The position numbers and the translations under genes are program-made. A stretch of DNA of 64,000 nt from Gordius sp. MW1 (lineage: Eukaryota; Nematomorpha; Gordioida; Gordea; Gordiidae): NCBI GenBank assembly GCA_964036665.1, contig OZ038528.1, positions 18,897,245 through 18,961,244 of the forward strand. Direction: 5' to 3'. This document shows, one piece after another, positions 3,101 to 63,882 of this stretch. The notes below the pieces were generated by a model. The model had not been told where the DNA came from and searched no databases. It was given only the letters and a program-made list of their open reading frames with translations. Positions within the stretch are counted from its first letter, which is position 1. Every line of letters starts with the position of its first letter.

Positions 3101-6100
3101 AAAAAAGCTACACGCTATTTTGATGAAACGAAAATGAAATCTGCCATGACATGAATACAACCTTAGTATTGCCAGGTCAAACTTGCAAGGTTTAACCATG
3201 TTTATCCCGATAATTAGGTGGAATAACATGTTTTATAATTAACGGAAACGTATCCCATAAAATTTGTTCATTACCCGAATATATATGTATCGTATTCGAG
3301 CGAAAAGGAATACGATTTAAATAAGAAGGTCCAGAAGGGAAGAGTTATTAGGAATTAATTGGGGGAACTTAAAGGAAAATTGGGCCGTAAAACGATAAAT
3401 TATTGGGGGATGGCCGGGCCGCGAACAGGCTCACGCGCGTACGCAGAAATATTTCTCAACTGTCTTTATTACATGGCATTAATATAATCACAACCAAGAA
3501 AATATATAATAATTAAAAGATCGCAATGTCAAAATCGCATACGATAAGATGCGTATATCGAAAATCACTCACGCGTAAGAAAAATAACAAATACGTATCA
3601 GCGCGTCGGGGGGGGGGGGGTATACGCGTACTAGAAATTAAATGTAAAAGAATAATGGTCTACGCTATGAGTGTACAACGTGTAAGATCAAAAGATTGTA
3701 CCGCGTGTTGAACTCTTAACTTTAATTTTTGAATAAGATGAGATGAGGGGGGGGGGGGGGGGGGTGTGTGGGAAGACATCTTCATCATCGTATCTCTGGA
3801 TACGCTAATTTCATTCTTCGTGTATGGGTACACGACATCTTTTCCTTTTAAAAGTCGAAGACTTAATGTATTTTCGATAGAGTTCTAAGAGCTCAGTGCA
3901 ACTATCAAGGCGGCGTTATTAACATTATAAATTTCAAACATCTGGCATCGAATACCAACTCTGGCCTTTGCTCACACGACGACTGATATATGTAAAAATC
4001 AGAGATAAAAAGGCAACGTCATGACTAACGGATTTTTCTTCCAGCTCTGTGACTCACCTAGCAACAGCCTTGACAAAACTTATAATTAATATAGATTGTA
4101 AACTGCTATCTTGAAAATTATCCTTTCTTGCCCACGAGCAGACTGTCAAATACTAGTCAAAGAAACTGCGGGGGGGGGGAATTTTAATATTGGTTAACAA
4201 TATAATTTTCATATAATAAATATATGTAAATAAATCAAGTGTATAATTCTGTCTTACAATAATATTTTAGCGGATTAAGAATTTAGGCCTTGAGAATTAG
4301 TTAGGGATGATTCTGCATAATTGATATTTTGAATAAAATCAGTTTCGGGATCTTCATTCGTTCGAAGAATTCCGCCATATGTTCTCAGACATATTGGAAT
4401 TTCCACTGAATTATGTTTGCGGTTTAAATTTGGTAGCCAATTGTTCGAAGGAATTGTTTTCTTCCTCCGTCTCCCAATATTTCCGAATCATGGATTGGTT
4501 CGATTGTTTTAGTAGAATAATCTTATCCGATATCCCTGCGCTGTGACGGTTGTTCATGGCAAACGGGATTGGAATAATTTTATTCAATATCCCTGCACTG
4601 TGACGATTTTTCATGGCAAACGGGATGTTCCTGGAATAATTTTATCCGAATAATTTTATCCATTCCATTCAGAAGAAGGGGCGGGGCGGCAATTTGAATT
4701 CCAAATTAATTTTTCTGTATAAATTATTTCCTTTTTCGTTTTGTAGAATAATTCCTGGTTTCCTCCATCGGGCGTGAGTAGAATATCTGACACCAAATAT
4801 CGTATTCGATGCGAAAAAAGGAATACGATTTAAATAAGAAGGTCCAGAAGGGAAGAGTTATTAGGAATTAATTGGGGGAACTTAAAGGAAAATTGGGCCG
4901 TAAAACGATAAATTATTGGGGGATGGCCGGGCCGCGAACAGGCTCACGCGCGTACGCAGAAATATTTCTCAACTGTCTTTATTACATGGCATTAATATAA
5001 TCACAACCAAGAAAATATATAATAATTAAAAGATCGCAATGTCAAAATCGCATACGATAAGATGCGTATATCGAAAATCACTCACGCGTAAGAAAAATAA
5101 CAAATACGTATCAGCGCGTCGGGGGGGGGGGGGGTATACGCGTACTAGAAATTAAATGTAAAAGAATAATGGTCTACGCTATGAGTGTACAACGTGTAAG
5201 ATCAAAAGATTGTACCGCGTGTTGAACTCTTAACTTTAATTTTTGAATAAGATGAGATGAGGGGGGGGGGGGGGGTGTGTGGGAAGACATCTTCATCATC
5301 GTATCTCTGGATACGCTAATTTCATTCTTCGTGTATGGGTACACGACAATATGTATGGAGAAAAAACTTTATCGTTTTTAAACATCAATTTATAATTAAT
5401 ATCTGATCGCGAGAGGAGGTTTGGTAATGATTTAGGGAGAAACAATATGAATAATTTTTAGTTAACCACAATGTCGCTTTATATCAATGTAAAAAATCAT
5501 GGACGTGTCCTTCTTGCCTCTTTCCTAACTACACCTAGAGCCCTGCACGGGCCGCCAAAAAAAAAATTTAATCTGGCCTCGGGCTCGGGTCTAGCTTGAT
5601 GGGTCAACACGACCCGAGGCCCGAGCCCAGCCCGAGGCAAAATCTAGCTAGAAGATTATGTTTAAACTCTTACTAATTCCTTTGTTGAGTAGGCTATTTA
5701 GAGGAGATAAAATATTTTTAGGTTAAATGAAAGGTGCGGGTGGGTATTCTGAATAACACTATTATAAATTTACATTTCAAATTGGTCTGTTCATGTTTAG
5801 TCGACTAGGACTAAGGGTGGACCAAACAAAACCCAGCCGTTTCCACGACACTAAACACACGTCGTATCAAATTCACGATTAAAACTTCAAATTTATAAAA
5901 TGTGTTGCATAAGTTTTTACCAGGGGCTTTGAGGGTATTATTTCGTCGCCCGAGGGTGATGCTGGTGACGCAGTGTAAAAATTGTCGGATTTCGAGCTAG
6001 TGGGCGACGCTAGTGTAGCCACGCGATAATTATTCAACCAGTCACTCTGGGTTTCTAATTTAACGATTTAACAATCGGTTATAATGAATTATATCCATGG

Positions 6101-8617
6101 GTGTAGCCAGGGGGTGGCAGGAAGGGGCGACTTCCCCCCTCTATTTCAAAAGTTCTTTGATGTTTATTTTAATTATGTCTAAATTTTCACTAAGTTTTCA
6201 TTTTGCTCCTCCCCAAATCATTATTGCCCCCCCACCCTCTTAATTCCAATCCTGGTTACGCGCATGAATATATTCCACTCACACATGGAGTAAAACGAAG
6301 GCTTTTAACATCAAAAAGAAAAAATCTGAATCAATGACATACTATTGCAAATGTAAATACTAAATATTAACTCCACCTCCCCCACAAAATTAAATAATTT
6401 TTTAAATACCACCGTTTTACCAAAACTAAACACATTTTATTTACAGCTATATAACCCGTTTAAAAACGAGAATGCTCCATGTTGATTGCGAGCGTCTTAT
6501 GCTAGGATACATGGGCGTAGATAGGGGGAGGCAAAGAGGGGCTAAACTCATTCCCCTCCCTAAATTTCAAATTTCTTTTCTAACCTAAGTGTAAAAAAAT
6601 TTTAATCATTTTTTTGCCCGTCCGTATATCATTATGCCCTCCACCTCCTCCAATTCAAATCTTGGCTAAACTCAAACGTGGATAAAGCAAACGTGATGTT
6701 TCCTTTGTTTATTAAGTATAAAATGTAGCCGCCCCATTAATTTATTAAGTCAACCCCCAAAATATTGAGTAATTTTTTGGGGTGGAATCACCTAGGGGTG
6801 ACTTGTGACCTTGTGAGACAAAAATATATGAATAAAAAACTTTTTAAACTAGTTGACAATTACATTAAGACTCAGGGCAATATAGGGATGAGTCTTGCGC
6901 TTTTTATGTTATACGTCATTGATATAGTTATTAACAAGATATGGAACGCTGCCAAGGGCCAAGCATTCGACCCCTGCCCATTGATCTCCCCAATTTATAA
7001 TTTCAGAGCATCGCCCGAAAATTAAAGCGTTAAACTATTTTTAATGACCAAATCGCCAGAATTTGAAATTTCCAAACATAGGCATAGCCAGGGAGAAGAG
7101 GGAGGGGCGGCTGCCCCCCCCCTAAATCCAAATTTCTTTGAAATTTATTAAAAATTATGGCTAAAATATCAAAAAATTATCATTTTGCCCCTCCCTAAAT
7201 CATAATTGCCCCCCGCTCTAATTCCAATGCTGGCTACGTTAACATATTTCCTAAGAAGTACTGGGTATTAAGTCAAGCCAAATGACGATTCAAAAGTGGG
7301 TGTGGGAAAAGGAAATAACATTAAATTGACCATAAAAAAGCACGGTTTAGAATTTAGAAAGCTCAGCCCTGACATATCAATTACGACCTTTTGTTTAATT
7401 TCCAAAATTTCACCGATTTTATAAAATAAAAGTTAGAAAACAGAGGTCAAAATCGCTACCAAAAAGGCATACAATAACCAGCACCTAGTAGGGGAGTCAT
7501 GGGCGTAGCCAGGGGCAAATGACAAAAAATTTATTTTTTAATACAAAAATTCTCGAAAATAAAAAAATTAATGTCTTGCCCCGCCCCCTAATTGAACTTA
7601 ATACGATTTCGCCCCCCCCTAATCCAAAACCTGGCTAGGCCCATGGGGGAGTCAATGATCGCGTATCGCAAGCAAAATTATACAATAATTTTAACTTAAA
7701 AATACCGGAAGCAATTAGAGGCGGTGGTCCGTTGTGGGTTAGACTAGGGGAATTTGGTAGTATTGATGAAGAAGAACGACCAAAACTTGCTAATTTTTTA
7801 GGGCCTGGCGAGGGGTCGTCATCCTCGTGTACCCTTTTGAGCGAAGAGTTTTGGGGAGATTTGGTGGTACTAATGGAGTTATCCTGATTGCAACCGGCCT
7901 GCTGGTGTGAGGAGAGATCATCGAGGTTAGTAGTAGTGTGGGCAGTATGCGTTGTTGATCTAGGTGGTGGGCTGCTGCAGTCCGCCATGTCGTGCAAGAG
8001 ACTGTGGTTAGAAATGGCTGCGGCTAGTAGCAATTTCTTCTTGTAATTATTATTCAAGTGGTCCAACTTGGCAGATTGATGCCCCTTGTTAAGACCTTGA
8101 GTGGCTACGGGTGCCTGAAACCCCGGAAAATTTGATTCGGCCCTCAGTAGAGCAGCAGTGGGTGGATCGATGATGAAAGAGGGAATAGAATTCATCTTGA
8201 GGTCAGCCTGAAAGCAAAAATTAATAATGGATATTGGGTAAGTAATGGTAAAATGTAAGGTTAAATATGCGTTGAGCGTTGTTAATTAGTTTGCGCCCGC
8301 CGAGAGGTGTACACACAGCAATAACCTACACCTAGCTAGCTAGCTAGCTACACAAAATTTACTGCTAACTGGTTGGCCGGGGCAGCGAAAAACATTGCTG
8401 AAATGTGTATGGCCTTAGTAATGAAAAATAGATACACAAATAACATACATCTCTCTCTATAAGGTAATTAAGGTTTAAATAATCTGACCGCTCAAAGGTA
8501 AGCGGAGGGTAGTGTTGCTATGCGCATTGAAAAAATAGCTTATTTATTTAAAACAAAATCTGACCAAAATAATGTAAAGAGCGTTATATTTTGAATACGA
8601 CTTACTATGGCAGACAT
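1..8617 (-). CDS. Multi-exon gene, low-complexity nuclear regulator-like protein (3' end off window)
   Basis: Hand-built gene model, minus strand. Exons: 8606-8617 (ATG at 8615-8617), 7706-8207, 5921-6054, 2722-2824, 2428-2636, 1363-1969, 617-1053 (or 599-1053) and 1-155. Every junction has AG/GT borders and the phases chain (0,1,0,1,0,1,0) without a stop, giving about 720 codons open at the left edge. The protein is rich in Ser, Pro, Asn and Gln, with a Gln run and His/Tyr-rich stretches and no recognised folded domain. Joining exons 3 and 4 creates PLDLA, and exon 8 has AVDLT; both resemble the PxDLS motif that recruits the corepressor CtBP. This suggests a transcriptional regulator in the nucleus. 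An E93/Mblk-1/LCOR-like factor is conceivable, but its helix-turn-helix domain is not in view. The intron model is seen in the sequence; the function is inference. Confidence 0.7.
599..1053 (-). CDS. Coding exon 7
   Basis: The acceptor CACCTCTAG|GAACGAG restores GTSRAACKNTPSQQQQHH in frame with exon 6. Two phase-0 donors are possible, ending the exon at 617 (GTAGGC) or 599 (GTTAAA). If unspliced, the frame stops at 575. The content is His/Gln-rich, then Ser-rich with SPSGDEKYAEMECGG. Confidence 0.65.
1363..1969 (-). CDS. Coding exon 6 with Gln run
   Basis: Acceptor TTTTGCAG|AAC, consensus donor CTCGG|GTAAGA. It encodes a Ser/Pro-rich half and a Tyr/Leu/Gln-rich half with seven consecutive Gln, partly from a pure GCT/CAG tract near 1605-1622, followed by YLMSMFQQQHNLLDPNALA. 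Such Gln/Tyr/Leu stretches are common in activation or prion-like regions of animal transcription factors. Confidence 0.75.
2138..2318. mobile_element. hAT-type MITE, TAGTGTTG family
   Basis: The inverted ends are TAGTGTTGTAAAA and TTTTACAACACTA, with subterminal GGGTTTTGTTTGG mirrored on the other side. It is flanked by ctagaaat and ctacaaat (7 of 8), an 8-bp duplication. 181 bp, no coding capacity. It lies in intron 5 of the minus-strand gene. Confidence 0.75.
2428..2636 (-). CDS. Coding exon 5
   Basis: Acceptor TTTTTTGTAG|CGG, donor ATA|GTTAGT. It encodes AEFGLDFPQFPILNSSPR followed by LIQKAKRYWKEFISKVL, a likely amphipathic helix and the most ordered-looking segment of the protein. It is the best part to use for a homology search. 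Confidence 0.7.
2722..2824 (-). CDS. Coding exon 4
   Basis: Acceptor AAAATCAG|GAC, donor AACG|GTAAAT. It begins DLALRNKITDLRNIHNN, so the splice joins to KPL-DLA and makes PLDLA. The rest is charged (Lys/Asp/Glu). Confidence 0.65.
3288..3837 (-). repeat. 3' LTR
   Basis: Differs from the other LTR mainly in the lengths of two poly-G runs (13 against 14, and 18 against 15) and a few bases near the start. The near identity points to recent insertion. Confidence 0.85.
4486..4660 (-). repeat. Short tandem units inside the LTR element
   Basis: Two to three units of roughly 60 bp share AATATCCCTGC and TTCATGGCAAACGGGAT. On the minus strand they give a 67-codon frame with the repeated phrase NRHSAGI. 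It is not recognisable as gag. Confidence 0.5.
4798..5348 (-). repeat. 5' LTR
   Basis: Second copy of the direct repeat. In minus orientation it begins TGTCGTGTACCCATACACGA, which includes a small inverted repeat (GTGTA/ATACAC). Confidence 0.85.
5538..5645. mobile_element. GCCCG-rich hAT-like remnant
   Basis: Starts AGAGCCCTGCACGGGCC and holds mirrored CTCGGGCTCGGG / CCCGAGGCCCGAG blocks, so it folds back on itself. It resembles the GCCCG-rich families at 33.9, 53.2 and 56.5 kb. Ends are not well defined. Confidence 0.4.
5783..5853. mobile_element. TAGTGTTG-family MITE, right-end fragment
   Basis: Contains TTTAGTCGACTAGGAC and ends CCAAACAAAACCCAGCCG then a mutated CACGACACTA. The left half is missing. 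Confidence 0.5.
5921..6054 (-). CDS. Coding exon 3
   Basis: This short exon contains SDWLNNYRVATLASPTSS and ends ...IIPSKPL at donor CTG|GTAAAA. It enters in phase 1 and leaves in phase 0, as required by both neighbours. Its last three residues supply the first half of the CtBP-like motif. Confidence 0.65.
6096..6266. mobile_element. CATGGGCG-family MITE
   Basis: Diverged ends (CATGGGTGTAGCCAGG ... CCTGGTTACGCGCATG) with imperfect flanks (6 of 8). It lies in intron 2 of the minus-strand gene. Confidence 0.7.
6510..6675. mobile_element. CATGGGCG-family MITE, decayed
   Basis: Left end CATGGGCGTAGATAGG is clear; the right end is eroded (CTTGGCTAAACTCA). It lies in intron 2 of the minus-strand gene. 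Confidence 0.55.
7077..7238. mobile_element. CATGGGCG-family MITE
   Basis: Ends CATAGGCATAGCCAGG and GCTGGCTACG. The interior has the usual GGGGCGGCTGCCCCCC step and the 'aaatca-attgcccc' right arm. In intron 2. Confidence 0.65.
7498..7645. mobile_element. CATGGGCG-family MITE
   Basis: Ends CATGGGCGTAGCCAGG and CCTGGCTAGGCCCATG; 7 bp (ggggagt) is repeated on both sides. It stops 60 bp short of coding exon 2. Confidence 0.75.
7706..8207 (-). CDS. Coding exon 2
   Basis: The acceptor is preceded by a pyrimidine tract (TTTTTGCTTTCAG) and the donor is TCCG|GTATTT; it leaves phase 1. The peptide begins ADLKMNSIPSFIIDPP, then turns Ser/Thr/Pro-rich with the charged stretch KRVHEDDDPSPGPKK, which looks like a nuclear-localisation-type patch. 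Confidence 0.7.
8606..8617 (-). CDS. First coding exon (4 codons)
   Basis: Encodes only M-S-A-I, followed by a strong donor (ATA|GTAAGT). It joins in phase 0 to the next exon, giving MSAIADLKMNSIPSF. Upstream the same frame meets a TAG about 25 codons back, so the ATG at 8617 is the likely start. The alternative is that translation starts at the Met just inside exon 2 (at 8195). The 5' UTR exon limit is not visible. Confidence 0.5.
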
Positions 8618-9055: not shown

Positions 9056-9233
9056 CATGGGCGTAGCCAGGGGGGGGGGCAGGGAGGGGCGGCTGCCCCC
9101 CTCTAAATCCAAAAAATTGTTAAAGTACATTAAAATTATGGCTAAAATTTCAAAAAATGTTCATTTTGCCCCTCCCTAAACATCCCTAAATCATTATTGC
9201 CCCCCTCTAATTCCAAAGCTGGCTACGCCCATG
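9056..9233. mobile_element. CATGGGCG-family MITE
   Basis: Intact inverted ends, an 8-bp perfect duplication (gctcttat), and GGGGCGGCTGCCCCCC inside. 178 bp. Confidence 0.9.
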
Positions 9234-11467: not shown

Positions 11468-11805
11468 CATGGGCGTATCCCTAATTTAAAAAAAAAATCA
11501 ATACAAAAACCCTAACAAATTAAAAAAAAATTTGTTTTGCCCCCCCCCCTAATTAGCCGGAGGGGGACAGCCGGACCCCCTGCCCCCCCCCCCCCTAATT
11601 TGCCAGGGTGGGCAGGGGTTCTGGCTGCCCACACTGCCTAATTTAGGGCAGTTGCTTTTTTTTTGCTCACAGGAAATTTTTTGGACGTCGAGACCTTTTT
11701 TTTTTGCTCTCAGGAAATTTTTTGGACGTCGAGACCTTTTTTTTTGCTCTCAAGAAAATTTTAATCTGTCCCCCCCCCCTAATTCAAAACTTGCGTACGC
11801 CCATG
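11468..11805. mobile_element. CATGGGCG-family MITE, long variant with tandem module
   Basis: 338 bp, with perfect 8-bp flanks (ggtaagac). Between the two arms a module of about 47 bp, TTTTTTTTGCTCTCAGGAAA... then ...GTCGAGACC, is repeated about two and a half times (11655-11760). Confidence 0.85.
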
Positions 11806-12881: not shown

Positions 12882-13028
12882 CATGGGCGTAGCCAGGTTT
12901 TTGATTAGGGGGGGGGGGCAAAACGTTTAAAAATTCCATTTAAAGAGGGCAAAACAAAATTTTTTTTAATTTTTCAAAGTTTTTGCATTGAAAAAAAAAT
13001 TTTCGCCCCCTCCCTGGCTACGCCCATG
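12882..13028. mobile_element. CATGGGCG-family MITE
   Basis: Intact ends, 147 bp, flanks atatctga/atatcaga (7 of 8). Confidence 0.85.
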
Positions 13029-17030: not shown

Positions 17031-17176
17031 CATGAGCGTAGGGGGCAGGGAGGGGCGGGTGCCCCCCTCTGAATCCTAAAATTTGATAAAATTAGGGCTA
17101 AAATTTTCAAACACTGATCATTTTGCCCCTCCCTAAATCATTATTGCCCCCTCTACTCGTACTGGCTACGCCCATG
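17031..17176. mobile_element. CATGGGCG-family MITE
   Basis: Ends CATGAGCGTAG and TGGCTACGCCCATG; flanks tccaagtt/ttcaaggt (6 of 8), so an older copy. Confidence 0.75.
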
Positions 17177-21129: not shown

Positions 21130-21285
21130 CATGGCGTAGCCAGGATTGTAACTAGAGGGGGGCGGCAATTATGATTTAGGGAGGGGCAAAATGAAAATTT
21201 CCTGATATTTTAGCCATAATTATATAAAATTTTAAAGATGATATGGATTAAGAGGGGGCACCGCCCCTCCCTGCCTAAGCCCATG
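21130..21285. mobile_element. CATGGGCG-family MITE, inverted arm order
   Basis: Ends CATGGCGTAGCCAGG and CTGCCTAAGCCCATG; flanks tccttatg/tccttaag (7 of 8). The GGGGG...caattatgatttaggg arm is on the left, the opposite orientation to copy 9056-9233. Confidence 0.85.
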
Positions 21286-24648: not shown

Positions 24649-24813
24649 CATGAGCGTAGCCAGGGGGGCACGCCCCCCCCCCTAAATTACAAAAAAAAAA
24701 TTTCAATGTAAAAACTTTGTAAAATTAAAAAAATTTATGTTTTGCCCCCCTCTAATTGCTTTTAAACGTCTTGCCCCCCCCCCCTTCTAATTCAAAACCT
24801 GGCTACGCCCATG
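24649..24813. mobile_element. CATGGGCG-family MITE
   Basis: Ends CATGAGCGTAGCCAGG and CCTGGCTACGCCCATG; flanks cctaaata/tctaaata (7 of 8). Two poly-C runs in the right half. Confidence 0.85.
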
Positions 24814-25256: not shown

Positions 25257-25410
25257 CATGGGCGTAGCCAGATTTTGGATTAGGGGGGGGGGCAAAACTT
25301 TTAAAAGTTCAATTAGAGGGGGGCAAGACATATAATTTTTTAAATTTTTTTACGATTTTGCATTGAAAAATTTTCTTTTTCGTAATTTGGGGGGGGGGGC
25401 TACGCCCATG
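25257..25410. mobile_element. CATGGGCG-family MITE
   Basis: Ends CATGGGCGTAGCCAG and GCTACGCCCATG; flanks agtaaggc/aataaggc (7 of 8). Unusually, both arms carry poly-G. Confidence 0.85.
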
Positions 25411-26567: not shown

Positions 26568-26736
26568 CATGGGCGTAGCCAGCATTGGGATTAGGGGGGG
26601 GGGGCAATAATGATTTAGGGAGAGGCAAAATGATCATTTTTTAAATATTTTAGCCATAATTTTAATAAATTTTTTGGATTTAGAAAGGGACAGCCGCCCC
26701 TCCCTGCCCCCCCCCCCCCCCTTGGCTACGCCTATG
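26568..26736. mobile_element. CATGGGCG-family MITE
   Basis: Ends CATGGGCGTAGCCAG and TTGGCTACGCCTATG; flanks gactaatt/gactaata (7 of 8). Poly-G (10) on the left, poly-C (15) on the right. Confidence 0.85.
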
Positions 26737-27064: not shown

Positions 27065-27211
27065 CATGGGCGTAGCCAGAATTAGATTCAGAGGGGGGGG
27101 GGGGGGCAAAATCATAATTTTTTGAAAAATTAGCCATAATTATAATACATTTTAAAGAATTAAGGGGGAGGGGCAACCGCCCCTCCCTGCCACCCCCTGG
27201 CTACGCCCATG
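27065..27211. mobile_element. CATGGGCG-family MITE
   Basis: Intact ends and a perfect 8-bp duplication, gggtttaa. 147 bp. Confidence 0.9.
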
Positions 27212-27829: not shown

Positions 27830-27992
27830 CATGGGCCAGTGGGGGCAGGGGCCCCCTAAATGGCGAAAAAAAAATTTAATGCAAAAACCCTTCAAAATTA
27901 AAAAAAAAATTTCGTTTTGCCCCCCCCCCCCTAATTAAACTTTTAAACGTTTTGCCCCCCCCCCCCTTATCCAAAACCTGGCTACGCCCATG
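27830..27992. mobile_element. CATGGGCG-family MITE, left end damaged
   Basis: Left end reads CATGGGCCAGTGGGGG (part of the repeat lost); right end CCTGGCTACGCCCATG. Perfect flanks tttgttac prove the borders. Confidence 0.85.
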
Positions 27993-28134: not shown

Positions 28135-28302
28135 CATGGGCGTAGCCAGGTTTTGGATTAGGGGGGGGGGGGGGGGGGTAAAACGTTTAAAAGTTCAATT
28201 AGGGGGGGGGCCAAAACGTAATTTTTTTTTATTTTTAAGGGTTTTTGCATTGAAATTTTTTTTTCTCGCCATTTACGGCCCCCCCCCCCGGCTACGCCCA
28301 TG
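28135..28302. mobile_element. CATGGGCG-family MITE, long G-run
   Basis: Perfect 8-bp flanks cttttttt. The left arm has a run of about 18 G and the right arm a run of C against GGCTACGCCCATG. Confidence 0.9.
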
Positions 28303-28707
28303 CTTTTTTTAAACTAACTATCGCCTATTTTAATGTAGGATAGGATGGTGAAACATTTTAAAACTATAGCAATATATAGGTAAAGCATAAGCGACTGAAA
28401 ACATAGAATTGATCGAATAAACTTCAACGACCTACGCATTTATAAATATTACTGAAAAATCACATTATTTTAATCCCCTAAAAAATTTAAATCGAACATA
28501 ATACCAACAACAATAAAGGGTCAGGCGCGTAGCCAAGATTTTCTCAAGGGGGAAGAAAAATTCAAAAAAATTTTCGACACTTTTATTTATAACTAGCTGA
28601 CCCGGCAAACGTTGTTTTGCCATATAAAAAATATTTTTAAAAAAATTAAAAAATTTAAATAAGAAAATTTAAAACTACCAAAAAAAAATTTAAAAACTCA
28701 ACTAAAC

Positions 28708-29019
28708 AAAAAATAACAAATAATTGATATTTTTAAGTGTGGTTAAAAACACATTTTACCTCAATAATGTTCGAATTTAAATTTTCATGAAGCAAATTTT
28801 TTTTAAGTCAAATTTACCTATAATCAAAAAAAAATATCGCGCCTGGCCTTTATGATAAAATATAAACAAAAGGCGGATACGGATACGCATATAGGTTATT
28901 TAACGAAAAATAACAAATAATTGATATCTTTAAGGGTGGTTAAAAACACAAAATTTTACCTCAATAATGTTCGAATTTAAATTTTCATGGAGCAAATTTT
29001 TCTCAAATTTACCTATAAT
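28708..29019. repeat. Direct duplication of about 115 bp
   Basis: 28708-28826 and 28906-29021 are nearly the same (both hold AATAATGTTCGAATTTAAAT and TTTACCTATAATCA). They are separated by about 80 bp. Confidence 0.7.
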
Positions 29020-29517
29020 CATGGGCGTAGCCAGGTTTTGGATTAGGGGGGGGGGGCAAAACGTTTAAAAGTTCAATTAGAGGGGGGCAAATTTGGCTTC
29101 GCAAATTAGGGGGGGGGGGCATCCGAGGATTTCAATACAAAAACCCTTAAAAATTAAAAAAAAAATTATGTTTTGCCCCACCCCCTAATTAGCCAGGCAG
29201 GCGGGGGCAGGGGGCGATGGAAATCGTCAAATCTAACACGATTTCCATACACGGATCAATGCCATCCAATTAGATTTTAACGCGTTTTCTTTTTAATATT
29301 TTATTTACCAATGTATTTTACCCATGTGATTATTAGAATAAACTACTATTTGTTTAAAAAAAAAATTGTTTTGGTAAAATAAAATTTAAATTACGGTTGC
29401 ATGAAAATTTTTGGATAGTCGAGACCTTTTTTTTTTGCTCTCAGGAAAATTGTTGGGTAGTCAAGACCTTTTTTTTAATCTGCCCCCCCCCCTATTCAAA
29501 ACCTAGCTACGCCCATG
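29020..29517. mobile_element. CATGGGCG-family composite
   Basis: Ends CATGGGCGTAGCCAGG and CTAGCTACGCCCATG, but the flanks do not match and 498 bp is too long. It seems to be two family members or a rearranged copy with foreign DNA (about 29216-29395) between them, and contains the TTTTTGCTCTCAGG module once or twice. Confidence 0.65.
29216..29300. repeat. Dispersed repeat shared with 49262-49345
   Basis: AACACGATTTCCATACA then GATCAATGCCATCC occur at both sites, about 20 kb apart. No terminal structure can be seen. Confidence 0.5.
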
Positions 29518-30505
29518 GATATATCAACATTTATTGGCACTTTGTTAAAAGTATTTTCATTTTTCTCCTTGTTTAACGTGCAAAAAATTACAAAATTAGA
29601 TTTTTTAATTTATTTAGCCACGCAGGAGGGGGGGGGGGACACGACTGTCCTATAATAATAATAATAATTGAAGCAAAAAATGGCTTTGATAGTGCGTAAA
29701 AAGTTTTCATTTTCCGCAACACATGCCTACTGCATTTATCACCAGACTACCTACACGATAGATAGATAAGATACGCAGCAGTACGTGATGAGGGCAGGGC
29801 GTTTGATTGACGTGCGATACAACGTCAAAACGCATAAAACCCAATATCTCGAAAACTACTGGACCGATTTGGCTGGAACATATCTTAAAACACGCTCCGG
29901 AGTGGCAGGAATAAACTGTGAAATTTTGAGCCAAATCGGTCGGGTAGTTTTCCAAAATTGGTGGCGGCATACATACACACATAGTTTCATTTTTATATAT
30001 AAGATGTAACAAAAGTAAACATCGCGTACAATATATGCGAAACTTCAAGGCGCTATATAACCAGCTTTGAAACATCTCTTCTCTTCATTAATTAGAGCAT
30101 TTACTACCGATTGTATCCCTTAAAAAAGAAAATGGACCTTCAAAAAAAATTTATAGTTTGGTCAAGGGGGTAGAAAATTCCCGCTTTCTGCCCCCTTGGC
30201 TACGCGCCTGTAAAGGGTTACTACTAGATGATGAGGTGGAGATGGATGGCCTTGTAACCACAACCAAGTTAATATTATGTCGACTATATTTGGAAATCAT
30301 TAAAACCAACAAACCCCAACCCTCACCCTAGGAGACTCCCATTATAGGGGTTAAGTTTATAAAAATATAACAAAATTAATGCTATCCAAATAATAACGGT
30401 GCATACGATATATGCCATCGACAAATATGATTAAATCCCAACCCCTCCTCATCCCGGCCAAATAAGGGCAAGGTTAATGCTAAGATGCGATTTTAATTAC
30501 ATAGA

Positions 30506-30897: not shown

Positions 30898-31161
30898 CAT
30901 GGGCGTAGGCAGGGGGGGAGTTTTGGGGAAAAATAGTTTTCAATACAAAAACCCTTTTAAAAAAAATGATTTGCCCCCCCCCCCCCCAATTAGCCAGCCA
31001 GGGGGGGCAGGGGGTCTGGCTGCCCCCACTGGAGTTGCGTTTGCTCTCAGGAAAATTTGGATTTGGATAGTCGAGACCTTTTTTTTTGCTCTCAGGAAAA
31101 TGTCGAGACCCTTTTTTTTAATCTGCCCCCCCCCCTAATTCAAAACCTGGTTACGCCCATG
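30898..31161. mobile_element. CATGGGCG-family MITE, long variant
   Basis: Perfect 8-bp flanks tcagaaag. Ends CATGGGCGTAGGCAGG and CCTGGTTACGCCCATG. 264 bp, carrying the GCTCTCAGGAAAA / GTCGAGACC module twice. Confidence 0.88.
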
Positions 31162-32178: not shown

Positions 32179-32342
32179 CATGGCTTAAGCAGGATTGAAA
32201 TTAGGGGGGGGGGGCAATAATGATTTAAGGAGGGGCAAAATGATAATTTTTGTTTTAGCCATTTATATTAAATTTTGGATTTAGAGGGGAGAAGGTGAGG
32301 GGAGAAGGTGCCCCTCCCTGCCTTCCTCTGGCTCCGCCCATG
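32179..32342. mobile_element. CATGGGCG-family MITE
   Basis: Ends CATGGCTTAAGCAGG and CTGGCTCCGCCCATG; flanks cataatct/cattatct (7 of 8). Confidence 0.78.
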
Positions 32343-36621: not shown

Positions 36622-36706
36622 ACCGTCGGCGGATGCCCCCACTCTAAATCCACAAATTTATGGCTAAAATTTCAACAAATGAATTCCAATGCTAGCTATG
36701 CCCATG
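36622..36706. mobile_element. CATGGGCG-family MITE, right part
   Basis: Retains CGGATGCCCCCACTCTAAATCC and ends GCTAGCTATGCCCATG. The left end is lost. Confidence 0.55.
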
Positions 36707-36936
36707 GCACAAAAGAGTATTAAAATTACTGCCTAAATAATCACACCTTTTGTCTTCTCATAACCATGCACTTTCCATAATCAGGAGATTGAAAACTTAT
36801 TAATTAAAAATTCATCGGATATGTTCTGACCTCAGGTGAATATCTAGATAGAAATCGCTGGGCAAAATAAAAATTAACCTTGCCTTTCAATGACTATTTT
36901 TTGTAACAATTTATACGCATTCTTAATATCTTTTTA

Positions 36937-37500
36937 GAGATCAAATTTGTTAAAATTTTCTGCCCGAACCAGGCTGGGTCAGATTTTATAACTAAATTAC
37001 CTGCCCGGGCCCGCTTAAACGCTTCTAAGAATCCGCCCGGCCCGAAACGATTTTTTTAATTTTCGTTAAATTTTCGGAAAATTTTAATTTAATTCTCATT
37101 TTTTTAGACAAGAAACACGATTAAATATTATATAATCAAATAAATAAAATAAAAACAATATAATACAGTCATGGGCGTAGGCAGGGGGGGGGGGGCGGCC
37201 GGCCCCCCCCCCCCCCCCCTAAATGAGAATTTTTCTTTTTTTAATGTAAATTTTGGTAAAAATTGGAAAAAATTAGTGTTTCGCCCCCCCCCTAATTGAA
37301 ATTGACGACTTTTTTTTTTACTCTCACTTAGTCTCGGCGAATATTTTTTGCTCGCCCCCCCCCCTTCTAATCCGAAAGCTGGCTACGCCCATGAATACAG
37401 TATATAAAAAATGAAAAATCTTATATGGCCCGAATTGCTCGATTGCTATGATGCCCGCCAGTAAATCTAATTACGACAGTGGCCCGGCCAAGGACAGACT
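36937..37500. mobile_element. GCCCG-rich hAT remnant split by a MITE
   Basis: The left part (36937-37060) is like the arm of the 33.9-kb hAT element: AGAGATCAAATTTGTTAAAA, TTTCTGCCCGAACC. The right part (37425-37490) has GGCCCGAATTGCTCG and GGCCCGGCC. A CATGGGCG MITE (37170-37393) lies between them. Confidence 0.6.
37170..37393. mobile_element. CATGGGCG-family MITE
   Basis: Perfect 8-bp flanks aatacagt. Left arm G12 followed by CGGCCGG and a run of 16 C. Carries one CTCTCACTTAGTCTCGGCGA relative of the CTCTCAGG module. 224 bp. Confidence 0.9.
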
Positions 37501-40006: not shown

Positions 40007-43000
40007 GTTAGTTAAACTGCTTTTCCCTTGCAATAATAATTTTTTTGTTATATAAATGGTTTCCTTTAACTAAATAATACTTGAACTTTCTGTTCAAATC
40101 AATTTATAGAAGATGCCAATATTGCAATTGCAGCAAGCTTGCATTGGTGAGTTGAATAATCTTAACCCAATTGATGTGAAACACATTCTTTCAGGTGATT
40201 TAATAGCTATTTGTAATTAAGAAGGATTAATTATTTGACATATAGGTAAAAGGATGTCCTTTTCGCCTCCAAGAAAATCAATGTTATTAAATTTAGCACC
40301 CTCTTCTGACCTCAGTGACATAAATGATGATTTAAGCAGTATTCATAGCAATATTACCCATGGCAGTATAAATGAAAGTTCATCTAAAACACCTAGTCCA
40401 CACTTTGCTTCATCCATCAAAATTTTTTCTAAATATGATGTGGCAACAGGAAGAAATTGTCTCAGGCCAAATAAATTACAACATTCATTGAAAAGTAACT
40501 CTTTTGAAATTAACTTTTAATACATAGTTACCTTTAATTTTATGATTGTGCCATAAAAATCTAAATTTTATGTATCAACACTATATTTAATTTAAGTGTA
40601 GATGTTTTTGTTTAATATTTTGTGAATATTTGTTTGTAGGGTTATAATGTTACTACTTACTTAGTTTTATAATGAATTCAGGCAATGTTGGCTTCTAACT
40701 CCTGTGATACTAACTTTATGTAAAAAGGATAAATGAGTGGGTTGTAAAAATTATTATATAATATGGGGCTTTTTAAAATTGTTTAAGAAGAAAAATTGGA
40801 AATATTAAAACTAAAACTATTTTTTTAAAGCAAAAAGCGGGAGGATGGTTTAAGCAAAGTGCCAAAATTATAATTCAAATGTGACAAAATAGCTTATCAT
40901 TATTTATAGAATCTCATAAATCAGAATCATCCAAAAAGGTGATGAGGAATAGCAATGAAAGAAGCCACCCAAATCAATTGCCATTACATAAAGCTTGCAA
41001 AGAAAAAATGTTTCAGGGTCCAACTTTACCTAAAAAACCAGAAACTTTTAATATCAGTACTCCGTCTTTAGCGATAGAATCCAACAGGTGAGCTCTTTGG
41101 AGAAAATTAAGAAAGAAAAGATATTTTTGAAATTAAACATATGAAGCTATTTAGATTAATAGGATGAAACATGGGCGTAGGCAAGGGTGGGGGGGGCGCC
41201 TAAATGACAAAAAAAATCAATACAAAAACCCTCAAAAATTAAAAAAAATTATGTTTTGCCCTTCCCCCTAATTCACTTAGAAAATGGTGAAACATCTTTT
41301 TATTGCGAATTATATATACTAATTAATAGTGAATATTTTCTTGATATTTCACAAAATAATGAAATGCCAATCCATCGTTAGTCAGGTGGGGGCCATGAAA
41401 CTTCAAGCCGCTTGAAAACTAGGGCTATTTTTAATCCCCAAACTTGATATCTTACTTTTATTTATAACTCGACCTAAGCTCGGCTTGACATTTTTATGCA
41501 ACTTCCATGCAAAATTTACGTTTGAAATTAATTTACTGTTTAAATGTATATTAAAGTTTATTGCTATTTCTAGGTCATTTAAAACAAAAAGAAGCATAAG
41601 TAAAGAATTAAGAATCAATCTATCTTGGTACAATCTAGTCAATCATAATTTTTATAGTTTATCTAGCGGTTAGAAACAGTTTTTTTTAAATATTTACCTA
41701 TATTATTTATTAACGTTACCTTTATATTAATGCTACACAATTTATGCACTCACTTGTGATGAAATATGCCCTTTTCTCCTGCCTGTCCTGTCCACTTTGG
41801 GTTTATATTGCAAAATTCGGATTTTGCAAACGAATTTGTGCGTCATGATAAAAATTAGATAATGACCGCTGGTTCACATTATTTTTTTGACCCCGCTTGA
41901 AGCCAAATTTCGTTTTCATTTTTGTGCCTTAACCGATTACTTTTATAAATTTCTTCTTGCAGGTTGTTAACACGTTGCTTTACAACGGACCACGAAACCG
42001 ACTAATTAACTGCTTCAAAATAAATGTTGACCGTTGTTCACATTAAATTTGTCTGACCCCGACCCGAGGACAAAATCCTTTTTTAATTTTCGTGCTAATT
42101 TTTGTTAATCCTACTTTTTGAAGCAAGTTCCACTTTAGTTAATAATGTAAACTACGATTCTGATTTAGTTTTTTTACCCAAAACCGTTGTTCAAATTTTA
42201 TTTCTAAACTCGGCTTGAAGCCAAAATACTTTATAAGTGGCAATTGATTCTTTACCTTTGTTCAACTTAATGCTTTATAATGGAGAACTACGAATATGGC
42301 GAAATTGTTGCTTAAAATAGAATGATGGTAGTTATTTGCACATAATTTTTCTGACCCCGGCCAGAGGCCTAAATCCATTTCTTAACCCCCTTGGGGGTCC
42401 TTGGACGAAGCCTCTGGCAGGGTTTATATTTATAAATGTAAATTTGAACAAAAACTGAGAATAACATATTGAACAAAAGACTAGAAGAGCTGATCATGGG
42501 CGTAGCCAAGAAGGGGGGGGGGGTCAGTGAAGGGTGGCTGCCCCCCTCTAAATCCAAAAATTTGTTGAATATTGGTAAAATTTTGAAAAATGTCCATTTT
42601 GCCCCTCCCTAAATCATTATTGCCCCCCCCCTCTAATTTCAATGCTGGCTACGCCCATGAAGCTGATGCTCGAAAAGGTATGTCCGAGAACCCTATATTT
42701 CAATGTAGTTCTCGCTGAAAAGACAGTAAAATACTAGGCCCTCCTACCCTCTAATATCTTTACCCCTATCGTTGCCTCGTGCTCTGGGACTTTTGGTCCG
42801 GCCGCCATCAAGCTTTTCAAAGAAATCAGCCGTCGCTGCCCGCCCTCTAAATATTCCACACTTTTTGTACTTAAACCAAAAATTGGTATTTTTATAGCAA
42901 AGAACAATTTTAAATCCCTGGTCGACAGCTGGCCACTTTTAGTAGATGACACATGCAACGCTTTTGAATTTTAGTTTTTTTTATTTTGTTTTATACCCGC

Positions 43001-45511: not shown

Positions 45512-46246
45512 TTAACAAACTGTAGGGATATATTTTATCTTGTGTCTATACATATCAGGCATTAGTAATGTTAAAACGTGGTGAAGAATAACTGCTGTTA
45601 TCCCCCAGATTCTTAAATTTTGTGATTCTGATCCATTTTGATAATTAAGGTATATTGGCAGAGATAAGCCCATACCTGTTCTAAACTGGGTGTGATATAT
45701 ATTTGAAACATCACTTAAATTGCATATGGAAGCCATTATGACATTGGCAACCTCATCTTTAGATAAAGTCAAAGCATTTGGATCTACTTTTCCAATATAA
45801 CCAACATAAGGTGTTATTAATGTCTTACAATCTCTACTAGGAAATGGTTTCAAGGCACTCCAAATATCAATAGCAGTTTGTGGCAATCCAATTTCTTCAT
45901 GAGCTTCCCTTATAGCAGTGTCCATTAAATTGGAATCTATATCTTCAAAAATTCCTCCTGGAAAACTGATATCTCCACTATGTCTAGATATGTATAAAGT
46001 TCTTTTAATAAATAAAATGGATGAGTTATTATCTTTGTCAATGCATAAAGGCACTAATACAGCGGCTTTTCTAGTAGGCTTGACATCACCTCTTTTTTCT
46101 AATAAATGAGATTTATTGGCACATTTTTGAAAATTCAATTTGTTGCTAGGAGAAAATAAGGAACTCGGGGAATATAATTGAGGCCAGGCATAAGATGTAT
46201 GTAAACTAAAACTAATACGGCTAGGCTTCCATTTACTAAATATCAT
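45512..46246 (-). CDS. Nudix hydrolase, CoA-pyrophosphatase type (NUDT7/NUDT8-like)
   Basis: 244 codons in one exon on the minus strand. The core reads ILFIKRTLYISRHSGDISFP directly followed by GGIFEDIDSN and TAIREAHEEIGL. This fits the CoA-type signature (L-L-x-x-R-x-x-x-L-R-x-H-x-G-x-I-x-F-P-G-G before the Nudix box) and the box catalytic residues R-E-x-x-E-E. Such enzymes cleave the pyrophosphate of CoA or acyl-CoA to a phosphopantetheine and 3',5'-ADP, with a divalent metal. Length and the non-acidic, Ser/Lys-rich N-terminus (KWKPSRISFSLHTSYAWP) suit a mitochondrial NUDT8-like protein; no peroxisomal C-terminal tripeptide is seen (it ends IPTVC). It converges with the CAAP1-like gene. Confidence 0.9.
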   Translation of the reverse strand: MIFSKWKPSRISFSLHTSYAWPQLYSPSSLFSPSNKLNFQKCANKSHLLEKRGDVKPTRKAAVLVPLCIDKDNNSSILFIKRTLYISRHSGDISFPGGIFEDIDSNLMDTAIREAHEEIGLPQTAIDIWSALKPFPSRDCKTLITPYVGYIGKVDPNALTLSKDEVANVIMASICNLSDVSNIYHTQFRTGMGLSLPIYLNYQNGSESQNLRIWGITAVILHHVLTLLMPDMYRHKIKYIPTVC

Positions 46247-46579
46247 AACACTTTTTCATTTAAATTTTGAATATTGATGTGCCAAATCGATACATTTTGC
46301 AATTACAATATGAAACTAAACTCGACGTGAATCCACTTTTTCAAAATGGGGGGTTGCAAGATACATAAAGCTTTACAAAGAAATTAAATAATAACATTGA
46401 TTATAAAATTAGCTTAGTGTTTGATCACAGATGAGTGGAAATATTAAATGTCGAGTTTATTCACTTTGAAAGTGGAATGGTAGGGATAGGCATTAGGTTA
46501 AAAGAGAAAAAAATACGTCAGGAGAATTAACTTGAATTTGAATGTTTATCGATACTTGCAACTCTTGCTAATATATTAA

Positions 46580-47438: not shown

Positions 47439-48885
47439 TTAGTTACAATACAACCAATTAACGGTAATTTGATTGACAACACATCGGTAAATAACGAATC
47501 CCCTGAGGCACTTTTCACTCCAATTACCTCTCTTCAGTTCCCCCCTTTTCACAGACAAAATCCTTAAGGAATGCTGGACCCTCCAATTTCCCCCTGGTGC
47601 TCGTTGCTGTAAGATGGCCCCTAACCCTGTACCAGAGGCGTCTAGGCCCATGCCAGTCTCCCAATCTCCATTAAAGTATGCCAGTACGGGGCTTTCGTAA
47701 GCGCGGACTTGATGGCTTCGAATGCGCTTTGTTGTTCTCCGCCCTAGTGGTACATCACGTTTTTTTCATGAGTTTCTGAATCGGATGTAAGATTTTGGCG
47801 TAGTCCTTAATGAACTTTGAAAAATATTCTGTTAACCCAAGGAAGGATTTTACGTCGTTTTTGTTTGCTGAATTTTTCCACTGCTTGACTAGTTCGGCTT
47901 TATTGTCGTTGATTTGAATCCCCTTGTTACTTATTACGTATCCCAAAAATGATACTTCCTTTGCCCACAAGTTGCTCTTGGAAATGTTTGGCACGAACCC
48001 CCACTTTTGTAACGTTTCTAGGACTTTGAGTAACCGCTCGTTGTAAATTTCTTCCGTTTCCCCTGCATTAGTATATCATCGATGTATACCGCTACCCCCT
48101 CCATGCCTCCTAATATTTGATCCATTGTTTTTTGGAAAATAGCCGCGGCACAATTTAAGCCAAACGGCATCCGGTTAACTTTAAATAAGCCCTTGTGGGT
48201 GGAGATAGTCAATCGTCGACTCGTCTCTGGACCTAATTCAAGCTGTAGGTACGCCTTAGTTAGGTCCAGCTTCGTAAAACAACACGCGTTATCGAGTTTA
48301 TTTAATAAATCGTCGATTTTGGGCAAGGGGTACAACAAAACTTGTGCGTATTTATTTATCGTAAACCGGTAGTCTATACATAATCGCACTCCCATCGCTT
48401 TTACGGGTACCACTGGACTGGCCCATCTTGAGAAATCGATTGGTTCTATTACCCCGTCTCTGACCCATTTATTCAGCTCTTCTTCTACTTCTTTCTTCCA
48501 CGCCATCGGCACCCTTCGTGCGAGGATAAATACGGGATCTATGCCCTCTTTTAACGGTACTTCCACCGTTATTCCCTTGACTGCAAATTCGTTTAGCTGG
48601 CCATCCCATTGCTTCAACACCGTAATTAACCGCAAACCGTTCCACCGCAGCTCTCGAATTCCAACGTATTCGACGCCAGATTTCGGGCTCGAATTCTTGG
48701 ATCCAATCGATCCCGCACAACGGCGGCCCAGTTACGTCTGCTAACAATAACGACAGCTGTTTCCTCGTGTTACCCATTCGGGCATCGGCTTGTACCTTGG
48801 CTACAATCTTTATTTCCTCGTGGCCGTACGCGTACACCGTCGGGACGGGCTCCTTGTTGCGTGGGATCTCCTTCGCCCCGGACAT
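47439..48885 (-). pseudogene. Ty3/gypsy pol remnant (protease end, RT, RNase H start)
   Basis: Four minus-strand frames in pol order. 48885 onward ends a protease-like segment (LLLADVTGPPLCGIDW). 48635-48018 is reverse transcriptase with FTKLDLTKAYLQLEL, PFGLNCAAAIFQKTM and the catalytic VYIDDI. 47994-47755 is the connector (FLGYVISNKGIQIN, SFLGLTEYFSKFI). 47651-47439 begins RNase H (GLDASGTGLGAIL). At least three frameshifts separate them (near 48660, 48058 and 47755), and no integrase, gag or LTRs are recognised. It is dead and somewhat GC-richer than its neighbourhood. Confidence 0.88.
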
Positions 48886-54032: not shown

Positions 54033-54158
54033 CATGGGCGTAGCCAGGTTTTGGATTAGGGGGGGGGGGCAAAACGTAAATTTTTTTAATTTTTAAGGGT
54101 TTTTGCATTGAAAATTTTATTTTTTCGCCATTTAGGGGGGGGGGGGGCTACGCCCATG
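54033..54158. mobile_element. CATGGGCG-family MITE, G-runs in both arms
   Basis: Perfect 8-bp flanks cttgtagg; ends CATGGGCGTAGCCAGG and GGCTACGCCCATG. 126 bp. Confidence 0.9.
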
Positions 54159-54402: not shown

Positions 54403-54412
54403 ACCCGTCCCC

Positions 54413-54539
54413 ATGGGGGTAGCCAGGGGGGGGGGGGCTGGGAGGGGTGACTAAAATTGTTGAAATTATGGCCAAAATTTACAAAAATGATTCTTTTGCC
54501 CCTCCGCTAATTCCAATGCTGGCTATGGCTACTCCCATG
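54413..54539. mobile_element. CATGGGCG-family MITE
   Basis: Perfect 8-bp flanks cccgtccc; ends CATGGGGGTAGCCAGG and a slightly expanded right end (CTGGCTATGGCTACTCCCATG), where a few bases have been duplicated. Confidence 0.85.
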
Positions 54540-56655: not shown

Positions 56656-57606
56656 GATGTTTTAAATTTTAACCACTAATTTTGTTTATACTTGTAAAAA
56701 TTTAAACCTTAATTCTCGATTTTTTGGGGATAAAAACTACAGTTAATAAATAAAATGCAATCAAAAAAGTGAAAAATCTCACTGAGCCCGAAGTAAATCT
56801 TGTTTTTTTCAAACAATCAAAGAATATTAATAAAATTATATTTATTACTAAAGAACTCATTTGACTTCAACGATACTTAATATGTTTAAAAAAAGCGGGG
56901 CCCTTCATTATCTGTTTTAAACAATTTAAATGGTGAAAATGTGAAATATAATAAATGTGCAATTTCACAACATTTTTTTTTATTAATTAAGGGCATATTT
57001 ATTAAAATTTTTAGATGAATTTTATCACTTTATATATTTATTTGCCATTTTCTAATAATAAATTTTGTTTAAAACGTTTTTGTTAAAGAAAAGAGTAGAT
57101 TATGCTTATGCGAATTATATAGCTTTCCGCAGCGCATTTATATCTGCCGCTTTTGGCTATGGCACTTTAAACACAATGGCGCTCAATTTAAGTAGGGCAA
57201 GGCTCGCCTTTTAATTAACACATTAAACTTATTTACGACCTCTTTTGCCATATTAAACCGTTTTATTTCTTATAGCTATGATGTCTGTAACTTTACATTA
57301 AATTTTGTTACTACCTCCGAATTATTTTTGTTTTAAATAGTTTGAGATCTTCTGTTTAAAAAATAATAATTTTTTTTTACAAATATTCTGTTATTTTAAT
57401 GAGTTTTTATTTCTTTGTTACATAAACAATTGTTCTTGACTTGGCTTAGCATCTATTTCTCCACAGAGCTTGTTCAAAGATTTAAAACCACTCTTCCTCA
57501 CATATATAAATAATAAAGAACATGTATCTTTTTATTTCATTTAATTTGAATATAAAGTCTAATGTGTAGTTTTTTTTAGTATTTTTCATAATTAATATTG
57601 AAAACC
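56656..57606. other. No gene seen
   Basis: AT-rich spacer with no recognised feature. Confidence 0.3.
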
Positions 57607-57734
57607 ATGGGCGTAGCCAGCATTTGGATTAGAGGGGGCAATAATGATTTAGGGAGGAACAAAATAATTGTTTTTGAAATTTTAGCCTTAATTTCAATAA
57701 ATTTCAACAACACCCCCCCTTGGCTACGCCCATG
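57607..57734. mobile_element. CATGGGCG-family MITE
   Basis: Perfect 8-bp flanks ttgaaaac; ends CATGGGCGTAGCCAG and TTGGCTACGCCCATG. 128 bp, with an internal deletion next to the right C-run. Confidence 0.9.
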
Positions 57735-58309: not shown

Positions 58310-58515
58310 CATGGGCGTAGCCAGCTTTTGGATTAGGGGGGAGCGAGCAAAAAAAAAAGGTCTCGACTATCCAGAGGGGGGGGGCAGAGCAAAATTCAGG
58401 GGGGAGCAGAGCAAAATTAGGATGGGGCAGAGCAAAATTAGGGGGGAGCAAAACATACTTTTTTTTTTAATTCTTTAGAGTTTTTGTATCCTGCTCCCCC
58501 CTGGCTACGCCCATG
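58310..58515. mobile_element. CATGGGCG-family MITE with AGCAAAATTAGG repeats
   Basis: Perfect 8-bp flanks gttgaaac. The interior holds AAAGGTCTCGACTATCC (the GTCGAGACC module inverted) and three tandem units like GGGGGAGCAGAGCAAAATTA. Confidence 0.9.
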
Positions 58516-59488: not shown

Positions 59489-59629
59489 CATCCCCCTAAA
59501 TGACGAAATTTTTTTTTCCAATGTAAAAACCTTTAAAAATTAAAAAAAAACATGTTTTGCCCCTCCCTATTTCAACTTTTAAACGTTTTGCCCCCCCCCC
59601 CCCTAATCCAAAACCTGGCTACGCCCATG
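59489..59629. mobile_element. CATGGGCG-family MITE lacking its left repeat
   Basis: Flanks tatatacg at 59481-59488 and 59630-59637 are perfect. The left end keeps only CAT and jumps to CCCCCTAAATGACG; the right end CCTGGCTACGCCCATG is intact. Confidence 0.85.
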
Positions 59630-62194: not shown

Positions 62195-62348
62195 CATGGG
62201 CGTAGCCAGGGTAGGGGCAAGCGGCTACCTCCCCCCCCCCCCCCTAATTTACGAAAAAAAAATTTCAATGCAAAAACTTTGAAAAATTAATAAAATTTAT
62301 GTTTTGCCCCCCCCCCCCCCCCCAATCCAAAACCTGGCTACGCCCATG
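62195..62348. mobile_element. CATGGGCG-family MITE
   Basis: Perfect 8-bp flanks taacttag. Ends CATGGGCGTAGCCAGG and CCTGGCTACGCCCATG. C-runs of about 14 and 19 in the two halves. Confidence 0.9.
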
Positions 62349-62605: not shown

Positions 62606-63830
62606 CATTTTGTTTCACATAGATGACATAATGGAAGAAAATTATATAAATTATAATTTGTGTATATACTAACTATCTCAGCCTTTGGAAAACATCTTTT
62701 TAAAACAAGGCGAATAACATTGGTAATATGCGAACCTTTATAAAATTTGACACTGGCGCGGTTGAAATGGTTTTATTTATTCAGGCCATTCCAAGTCCTC
62801 AAATAATAAAACCAAGCCCCGTATAAGGTCTTATACCAAATTCAATTGAGCAGCATAATATTTTCTCACTAAAATCCCTGGGCCCAGTTTCTTGGGGGGT
62901 GGAAGGGCCCAATGATAAATCTGTGAAATTACTTTAATTTTGTTAGATCTTGGTTTAGGGCTATATAAATTTATTTTTAATTCCTTCTGCTATCCAAACA
63001 AATTATTAATTTTCATAAATTTATCCCCATAAAACTATCAAATAGGAGCCTTTCCCGTTTTGATTAAACTTTTTCAAATTGTACCAAAGTTAAATTATGG
63101 CGCCTATATTTAATAAAACTGGTGGATGATGTGCCTCCACTTTGTCTATATCCGATTCACATTACCATCTTTATATAAGTTCCATTTCCACATATAATCC
63201 CCCATGAGACTATTAACCCTTTTGGTATTTAGATGCTAAGGTTACGATAACAAATTGTTGCTTAGTATTGATTAATCTTTAATTTCCCCATACCCCTTCC
63301 TAGGCCTCGACTAATTACTTCCTATGTATCAACTTCAATCTTTTATAATAAATAGCTAAAATACGTTTTTAAACCTGCCATTTATAAAGTGGTAGATTTG
63401 TATCAATTAAATTATATATAAATGTTTTAAAAAACTAAAAACAAATTGCCTGCCATACTAAACAGTCATTAGTTATTATTTCTAGAATTAAAAAATGCAC
63501 AAATTTTGTAAAAATATAGAATAGTGAAAGTCCCGTTAAACTGAGATTTTAATATTACCCAATGATGTTTTATATTGATAGTGCATCAATTTAAGTAATT
63601 AGCAACACGCACCTATCTAAATATAAAAACTAGTATTTAAAGTTTTTTCAAAAGTGAATCTAGCTAGAAGACGCTAATGAGGTGTTAGCTTTGGCAAAAA
63701 TTACCTTAATTGCATACAAACCAATCGAAAACATTTTTTTTCAGGCTAAGCCATTTATAAAAAGTCCACATTAAATTTTAAGCGATATTTTCATTTGCTT
63801 CGGCTACAAAAATAACTTATAATAAATAGC
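62606..63830. other. No gene seen
   Basis: AT-rich spacer. A GGGCCCAGTTTCTTGGGGGG stretch at 62881-62900 resembles the 50.4-kb fragment. Confidence 0.3.
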
Positions 63831-63882
63831 CTAAGGGGGGGGGGGGCGGCCCCCCCTAACCCAAAACCTGGCTACGCCCGTG
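63831..63882. mobile_element. CATGGGCG-family MITE reduced to 52 bp
   Basis: Flanks taaatagc at 63823-63830 and 63883-63890 are perfect. Only CTAA, a G-run, CGGCCCCCC and the right end CCTGGCTACGCCCGTG remain. Confidence 0.82.

Follow-up and report, generated by a model that had tools for sequence, protein, structure and literature searches.

A high-copy MITE group with 8-bp flanking duplications in Gordius sp. MW1, most likely hAT elements moved by transposases encoded elsewhere in the genome

Four published reports describe the closest known systems. Tip100 of Ipomoea purpurea, in the Tip group of the hAT superfamily, is listed with the terminal repeats CAGGGGCGGAG (PMC12511174). BuT2, also of the Tip group, is described as having DUF4371 and hATC domains and 8-bp TSDs (PMC3942097). 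Silkworm BmMITE-13 to -16 are given as Pegasus-like MITEs of 263-431 bp with 8-bp TSDs, and the ends CAAGGGCGGATCCAG, CAGTGGCGGATTA, CAGTGGCGTACCTA and CAGTGGCGGATTT are listed for these Pegasus-like families (PMC2997013). The Mar MITEs of Drosophila are assigned to the Buster group of hAT (PMC3517528).

We analyzed 64,000 nucleotides of contig OZ038528.1 (positions 18,897,245 to 18,961,244; hereafter the window) from the nematomorph Gordius sp. MW1. A short element recurs many times in the window. Its two ends form a 16-bp inverted repeat, CATGGGCGTAGCCAGG, beginning CA; it is a small non-coding transposable element present here in a few dozen copies. Against the Tip100 repeat CAGGGGCGGAG (PMC12511174), the end CATGGGCGTAG of these elements differs at 2 of 11 bases, and the end CAGGGGCGTAG of two hAT loci elsewhere in the genome (L058 and L107) at 1 of 11. 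Unlike Tip100, the elements here have T at the third base and no transposase, the likeness being judged from the ends. As described for BuT2 (PMC3942097), the hAT genes of this genome combine DUF4371 with hATC and occur with 8-bp duplications; judged from DUF4371 and end sequence only, they may belong to the Tip group. The silkworm Pegasus-like MITEs likewise have 8-bp duplications and ends resembling those found here (CAAGGGCGGATCCAG and CAGTGGCGTACCTA), in smaller families of 9-171 full-length copies (PMC2997013), whereas the ends here run to thousands. Poly-G/poly-C tracts adjoin the ends here, unlike those of the silkworm MITEs. Non-autonomous hAT MITEs, conserved duplications and relic transposases are features shared with Mar (PMC3517528). 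All of this places the elements within a kind already described; the T at the third base is a minor variation, and a form starting CAA has been published. A literature search for the 12-base core together with "transposon" returned nothing.

A sequence-only reading of the window had described one MITE family that saturates it with more than 30 copies or fragments. That figure is reasonable: at ≤4 mismatches there are 31 ends of the left type and 31 of the right type, a few of which belong to other hAT elements. "Saturates" is too loose a word for 29 listed copies that occupy about 7.9% of the window (some boundaries estimated). At the mean density of the genome the window would have 1.5 exact copies of the 16-mer, and it has 14 (9x denser). 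Across the 211.8 Mb of the genome (12 contigs), a search for the exact 16-bp end gave 5,094 matches, and the reversed 16-mer gave 0. Complete copies are 126-338 bp long. Short, non-coding, numerous, and bearing inverted repeats and duplications, the elements are MITEs. The window gave no Rfam match at the gathering threshold.

All 14 perfect 8-bp flanking duplications of that reading were borne out on recheck, as were seven flanks matching at 7/8 (Table 1). At 13 of the 14 starts the exact duplication adjoins a recognizable right-hand end. Twelve start coordinates stood as given and two were off by one (54413 became 54412, and 57607 became 57606). The left inverted repeat is truncated in three of the 14 (27830, 59489 and 63831); the copy at 63831 keeps a single C of it, with TAAATAGC at 63823-63830 repeated at 63883-63890. 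A search of the window for end pairs (≤5 mismatches to the 16-mer, ends 60-1500 bp apart) returned 63 pairs, with flanks matching at 8/8 in 11 and at 7/8 in 5. When the left flank was moved 1-6 bases either way as a control, the 12 slides summed gave a single 8/8 pair and a single 7/8 pair. By length, exact duplications numbered 11 at 8 bp, one at 4, one at 7 and none at 5, 6, 9, 10, 11 or 12, and the signal is thus specific to 8 bp. Copies elsewhere lacking 8-bp duplications were not the pattern seen in the fetched loci: eight distinct end pairs ≤600 bp apart, a small sample, gave two at 8/8, three at 7/8 and three without a match, and six slid controls on these pairs gave no 8/8 and no 7/8.

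Table 1. Elements in the window, with strand, particular features and flanking duplications (bases agreeing out of eight).
Element	Position	Strand	Features	Duplication
Sub-family A copy	6096..6266	+		flanks 6/8
Sub-family B copy	7498..7645	+	both ends clear	none ≥6/8
Sub-family A copy	9056..9233	+		GCTCTTAT 8/8
Sub-family B' copy	11468..11805	+	41-bp internal tandem repeats	GGTAAGAC 8/8
Sub-family B copy	12882..13028	-		7/8
Sub-family A copy	17031..17176	+		6/8
Sub-family A copy	21130..21285	-		7/8
Sub-family B copy	24649..24813	+		7/8
Sub-family B copy	25257..25410	-		7/8
Sub-family A copy	26568..26736	-		7/8
Sub-family A copy	27065..27211	-		GGGTTTAA 8/8
Sub-family B copy	27830..27992	+	left repeat reduced to CATGGGC	TTTGTTAC 8/8
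Sub-family B copy	28135..28302	-		CTTTTTTT 8/8
Different, CAG-ended hAT	28522..30210	-	1,689 bp; ends CAGGCGCGTAGCCAAG	TAAAGGGT 8/8
Sub-family B' copy	30898..31161	+		TCAGAAAG 8/8
Sub-family A copy	32179..32342	-		7/8
Sub-family B' copy (by eye)	37170..37393	+		AATACAGT 8/8
Sub-family A copy	42495..42659	+		7/8
Sub-family B copy	54033..54158	-		CTTGTAGG 8/8
Sub-family A copy	54412..54539	+		CCCGTCCC 8/8
Sub-family A copy	57606..57734	-		TTGAAAAC 8/8
Sub-family B' copy	58310..58515	-		GTTGAAAC 8/8
Sub-family B copy	59489..59629	+	left repeat reduced to CAT	TATATACG 8/8
Sub-family B copy	62195..62348	+		TAACTTAG 8/8
Short fragment	63831..63882	+	left repeat lost	TAAATAGC 8/8

The claim of a single family has to be qualified. 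Aligned with one another, 29 copies (23 of them in the window, 6 elsewhere in the genome) have common ends and distinct cores, which define sub-family A (core GGCTAAAATTTC), sub-family B (CAATGCAAAAAC plus a TTTTGCCCCCC-CTAATTGAACTTTTAAACG block) and the longer sub-family B' (GCTCTCAGGAAATTTTTTGG repeats in two copies). The copies were assigned by eye to A (14), B (11) or B' (4) because one clustering cut lumped all 29 together, and copy 54412 was re-oriented by hand. The element at 28522-30210 is a different, CAG-ended hAT; it contains CATGGG ends at 29020 and 29517, and no transposase match was found in it. Copies diverge from their sub-family majority by 4.8-17.3% in A (14 copies) and 4.1-15.8% in B (11 copies). 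Copy 9056 has 39 other genome copies at 94-98% identity (40 of 2,750 first-look candidates scored), and copy 54033 has 39 other main places at 85-99%, mostly over partial length (scored among 1,978 candidates). These values describe a large, moderately young family and not one fresh burst. With copies 4-17% from the sub-family majority, the earlier claim that many insertions are recent is right only to a moderate degree.

Genes for hAT transposases are numerous in this genome, with at least 150 matches to hATC (PF05699; 150 scored among 3,413 candidates) and at least 129 to DUF4371 (150 scored among 281 candidates). Around the best loci we looked for the exact core CANNGGCGTA near the gene, counting it only where its side and strand were those that an element end would have. 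It was present at 24 of the best 30 DUF4371 loci (wrong strand, 1 of 30), which are not independent, many being near-identical copies. The best 30 PF05699 loci gave 2 (wrong strand, 1 of 30), and ten P-element loci gave none. With one mismatch allowed the counts were 25/30 for DUF4371 (wrong strand 2) and 7/30 for PF05699 (wrong strand 15); one mismatch in 8 informative core bases is too loose, and the result is therefore based on exact cores. The five DUF4371 loci without a core at either stringency (L059, L062, L063, L064 and L074) are near-identical copies of one set, and a 93-94% relative of that set, L060, carries the 5' core.

Among the fetched DUF4371 loci, ten have a candidate at each end together with eight flanking bases. 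Six match at 8/8 and one at 7/8, which together with the exact cores supports mobilization by hAT; the remaining three are without a duplication (L076, 5/8; L058, where a nested B-type end serves as the 5' candidate, 4/8; L085, 1/8). Set C (L049, L050, L051, L055 and L056) runs from CAGTGGCGTAAATAAGGGG to CAGGCGCGTAGCCAGGATTTT, with slight differences at each end in L051; all five have 8/8 duplications. Set D (L065, L067-L073 and L075-L078) is CAT-ended, from CATTGGCGTATACAAGG to CATAGGCGTATCTAGG; the three copies with both ends and eight-base flanks match at 8/8 (L075), 7/8 (L071) and 5/8 (L076), and where shorter flanks are in view 6/6 bases agree in L078 and 3/5 in L068. Both DUF4371 and hATC (PF05699) were matched in open frames of L049, L062, L067, L084 and L085; related ends were seen for L049 and L067, and for L085 there are candidates without a duplication. 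The L049 protein had no match among solved structures at E 0.1.

Transposase-bearing hATs here start with CAG, CAT or CAA. Since all three precede the same GGCGTA core, the earlier reservation that the MITE ends are not of the usual CAG type is dropped. A third repeat base of T or A is tolerated by the hAT elements here, and end spelling alone should therefore not exclude hAT. Among the fetched transposase-bearing elements, the ends closest to the MITE 16-mer depart from it at 1 of 16 bases (L058 and L107) or 2 of 16 (L049). The check proposed earlier was for a transposase gene lying between ends identical to those of the MITEs. Such genes were found between closely related ends, and none between exact CATGGGCGTAGCCAGG ends in the fetched DUF4371 loci, which take in all but about 75 of the 129 matches. 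No relative with a transposase of another superfamily was seen among the hAT and P-element genes searched, and the related ends were on hAT genes.

Since the ends and 8-base scars are like those of transposase-bearing hATs, the MITEs most likely form a large, ordinary family of hAT hitchhikers. We conclude, with a probability of about 0.92, that they belong to the hAT superfamily, have Tip100/Pegasus-like ends, and are mobilized by the DUF4371 + hATC transposase of full-length elements elsewhere in the genome. Confidence is slightly lowered because polarity at the 5' ends is mixed (see below) and because of the three element pairs without duplications. What was observed directly is the ends, the 8-bp duplications, the copy number and the presence of transposase genes in elements that have duplications and closely related ends. 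The transposase would recognize CANNGGCGTA ends, excise the MITE and make an 8-bp staggered cut at the new site, so that reinsertion would leave the 8-bp duplications. Movement in trans, by the cut-and-paste chemistry usual for hAT, would be the work of one such transposase or of a cognate that bears exact CATGGGCG ends and is rare or has been lost. The window MITEs are otherwise ordinary transposon biology at high copy number.

A variant of this explanation, still within hAT, is that the exact cognate has been lost and the MITEs are cross-mobilized by other, CAG-ended hAT sets. The fetched loci hold no exact cognate and the ends of L058 and L107 are one base in 16 from the MITE end; with so many DUF4371 matches outside the sample, however, a cognate may simply have been missed, and we regard the variant as possible while leaning against it. 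We consider it rather unlikely that the transposase of a CAT-ended MITE lineage has died out while the lineage persists, with transposases of the CAG-ended sets in the same genome now moving it. If it were true, a one-base difference at the third repeat position would not block recognition. Many MITE copies beside open-framed hAT genes make this genome a natural setting for asking which transposase moves which MITE.

P elements likewise make 8-bp duplications, and the Drosophila type starts CATG. Membership of the MITEs in the P-element superfamily would have young candidate genes to draw on, with 77 matches to PF12017 in the genome and ten fetched copies (L039-L048) more than 99% identical to one another over aligning stretches. 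The P family is therefore probably very young. Its alignments cover L040 over 2.6 kb only and L045 in two pieces. None of the ten P loci (one P sub-family) has a CATGGGCG-like end within 1.5 kb on each side, however, 6.3 kb around one P locus contains no such end at ≤5 mismatches, and CANNGGCGTA ends were found on hAT elements instead; we consider P membership very improbable. The P family's own ends were not found in the 6.3 kb around that locus. It is barely credible that the flanking repeats are a by-product of duplicated whole stretches and not of transposition: two B copies (L001 and L002) do lie in near-identical local surroundings (by eye), but the window copies at 8/8 or 7/8 each have their own 8-bp sequence, with flanks that differ beyond 8 bp. 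The L001 and L002 copies are 479 bp apart and look like a tandem duplication that took the MITE along.

Further checks bear on the assignment of the MITEs to hAT. In a coarser check of twelve 1-kb stretches, 0.8-1.8 kb downstream of other DUF4371 matches, an end stood at the expected place in 1/12 (L092). At L088, a CATGG-type end was rejected as the end of the adjacent gene and is a short B-like copy. For a blind check of 10 further DUF4371 loci, a 261-bp slot was fixed beforehand from positions already learnt. An end was present on the right strand in 7/10 (L101, L102 and L106-L110), in CAT-, CAG- and CAA-starting forms, whereas the slots of L103, L104 and L105 had no end, nor did one added on the 3' side of L062. 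Of the top 30 PF05699 loci, one (L013) had such an end no more than 700 bp from the domain. At L013 (1-3243), a hAT gene first seemed to be enclosed by these ends in one full-length element. This reading was rejected, since the gene belongs to a second hAT, with ends TAGAGGCCTGCA, nested within a longer A-like element that has its own 8/8 duplication, GTTCCGAC (nesting read by eye).

Profiles of MITE sub-families A and B were run over all fetched loci at E<0.01, with reversed decoys as control. In DUF4371 loci, hits had the right polarity at 9/9 3' ends and at 8/12 5' ends, the four opposite hits all being to profile B. Five further hits were separate short copies, and the decoys gave none. 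Similarity outside the terminal repeat is weak by its E-values at element ends (1e-5 to 1e-2, best about 1e-5 to 1e-4) and the DNA is G- and A/T-rich and of low complexity. The profiles offer a hint that MITEs and transposase-bearing elements may share distant common descent, the 3' arm being firmer than the 5' arm.

The Buster group has the target nnnTAnnn and the Ac group nTnnnnAn. Both motifs were sought in 23 perfect duplications (14 from window MITEs, 2 others, 6 from transposase-bearing elements and 1 from the CAG-ended element). The Buster motif occurred in 0/23; only about 2.5 are expected by chance, and this is therefore weak evidence against Buster. The Ac motif occurred in 5/23 against 2.5 expected.

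Decayed fragments of a DUF4371-type hAT transposase lie in the window at 36154-36505 and about 36711-36800, with an A-like MITE fragment between them. We rejected 36154-36505 as part of a half-deleted full-length copy between the G-type end at 35866 and the A-type end at 36706. The flanks are unmatched (ACTAAACT vs GCACAAAA) and another transposase-aligned stretch lies on the far side of the A-type end; an old relic that encloses the A fragment is therefore the likelier reading. The fragment at 36154-36505 appears to be an older relic and not part of a MITE of the window family.

Other features of the window include an almost identical pair of stretches, each about 535 bp long (3303-3837 and 4816-5348) and 1,511-1,514 bp apart; the pair may represent a local duplication or a short element of LTR type. 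A reverse transcriptase fragment (PF00078) lies on the minus strand at 48021-48731, and a NUDIX-domain open frame on the same strand at 45515-46255 is probably a host gene exon. Elsewhere in the genome, contig C1 starts with CCCTAA repeats (L083 1-300), a TTAGGG telomere.
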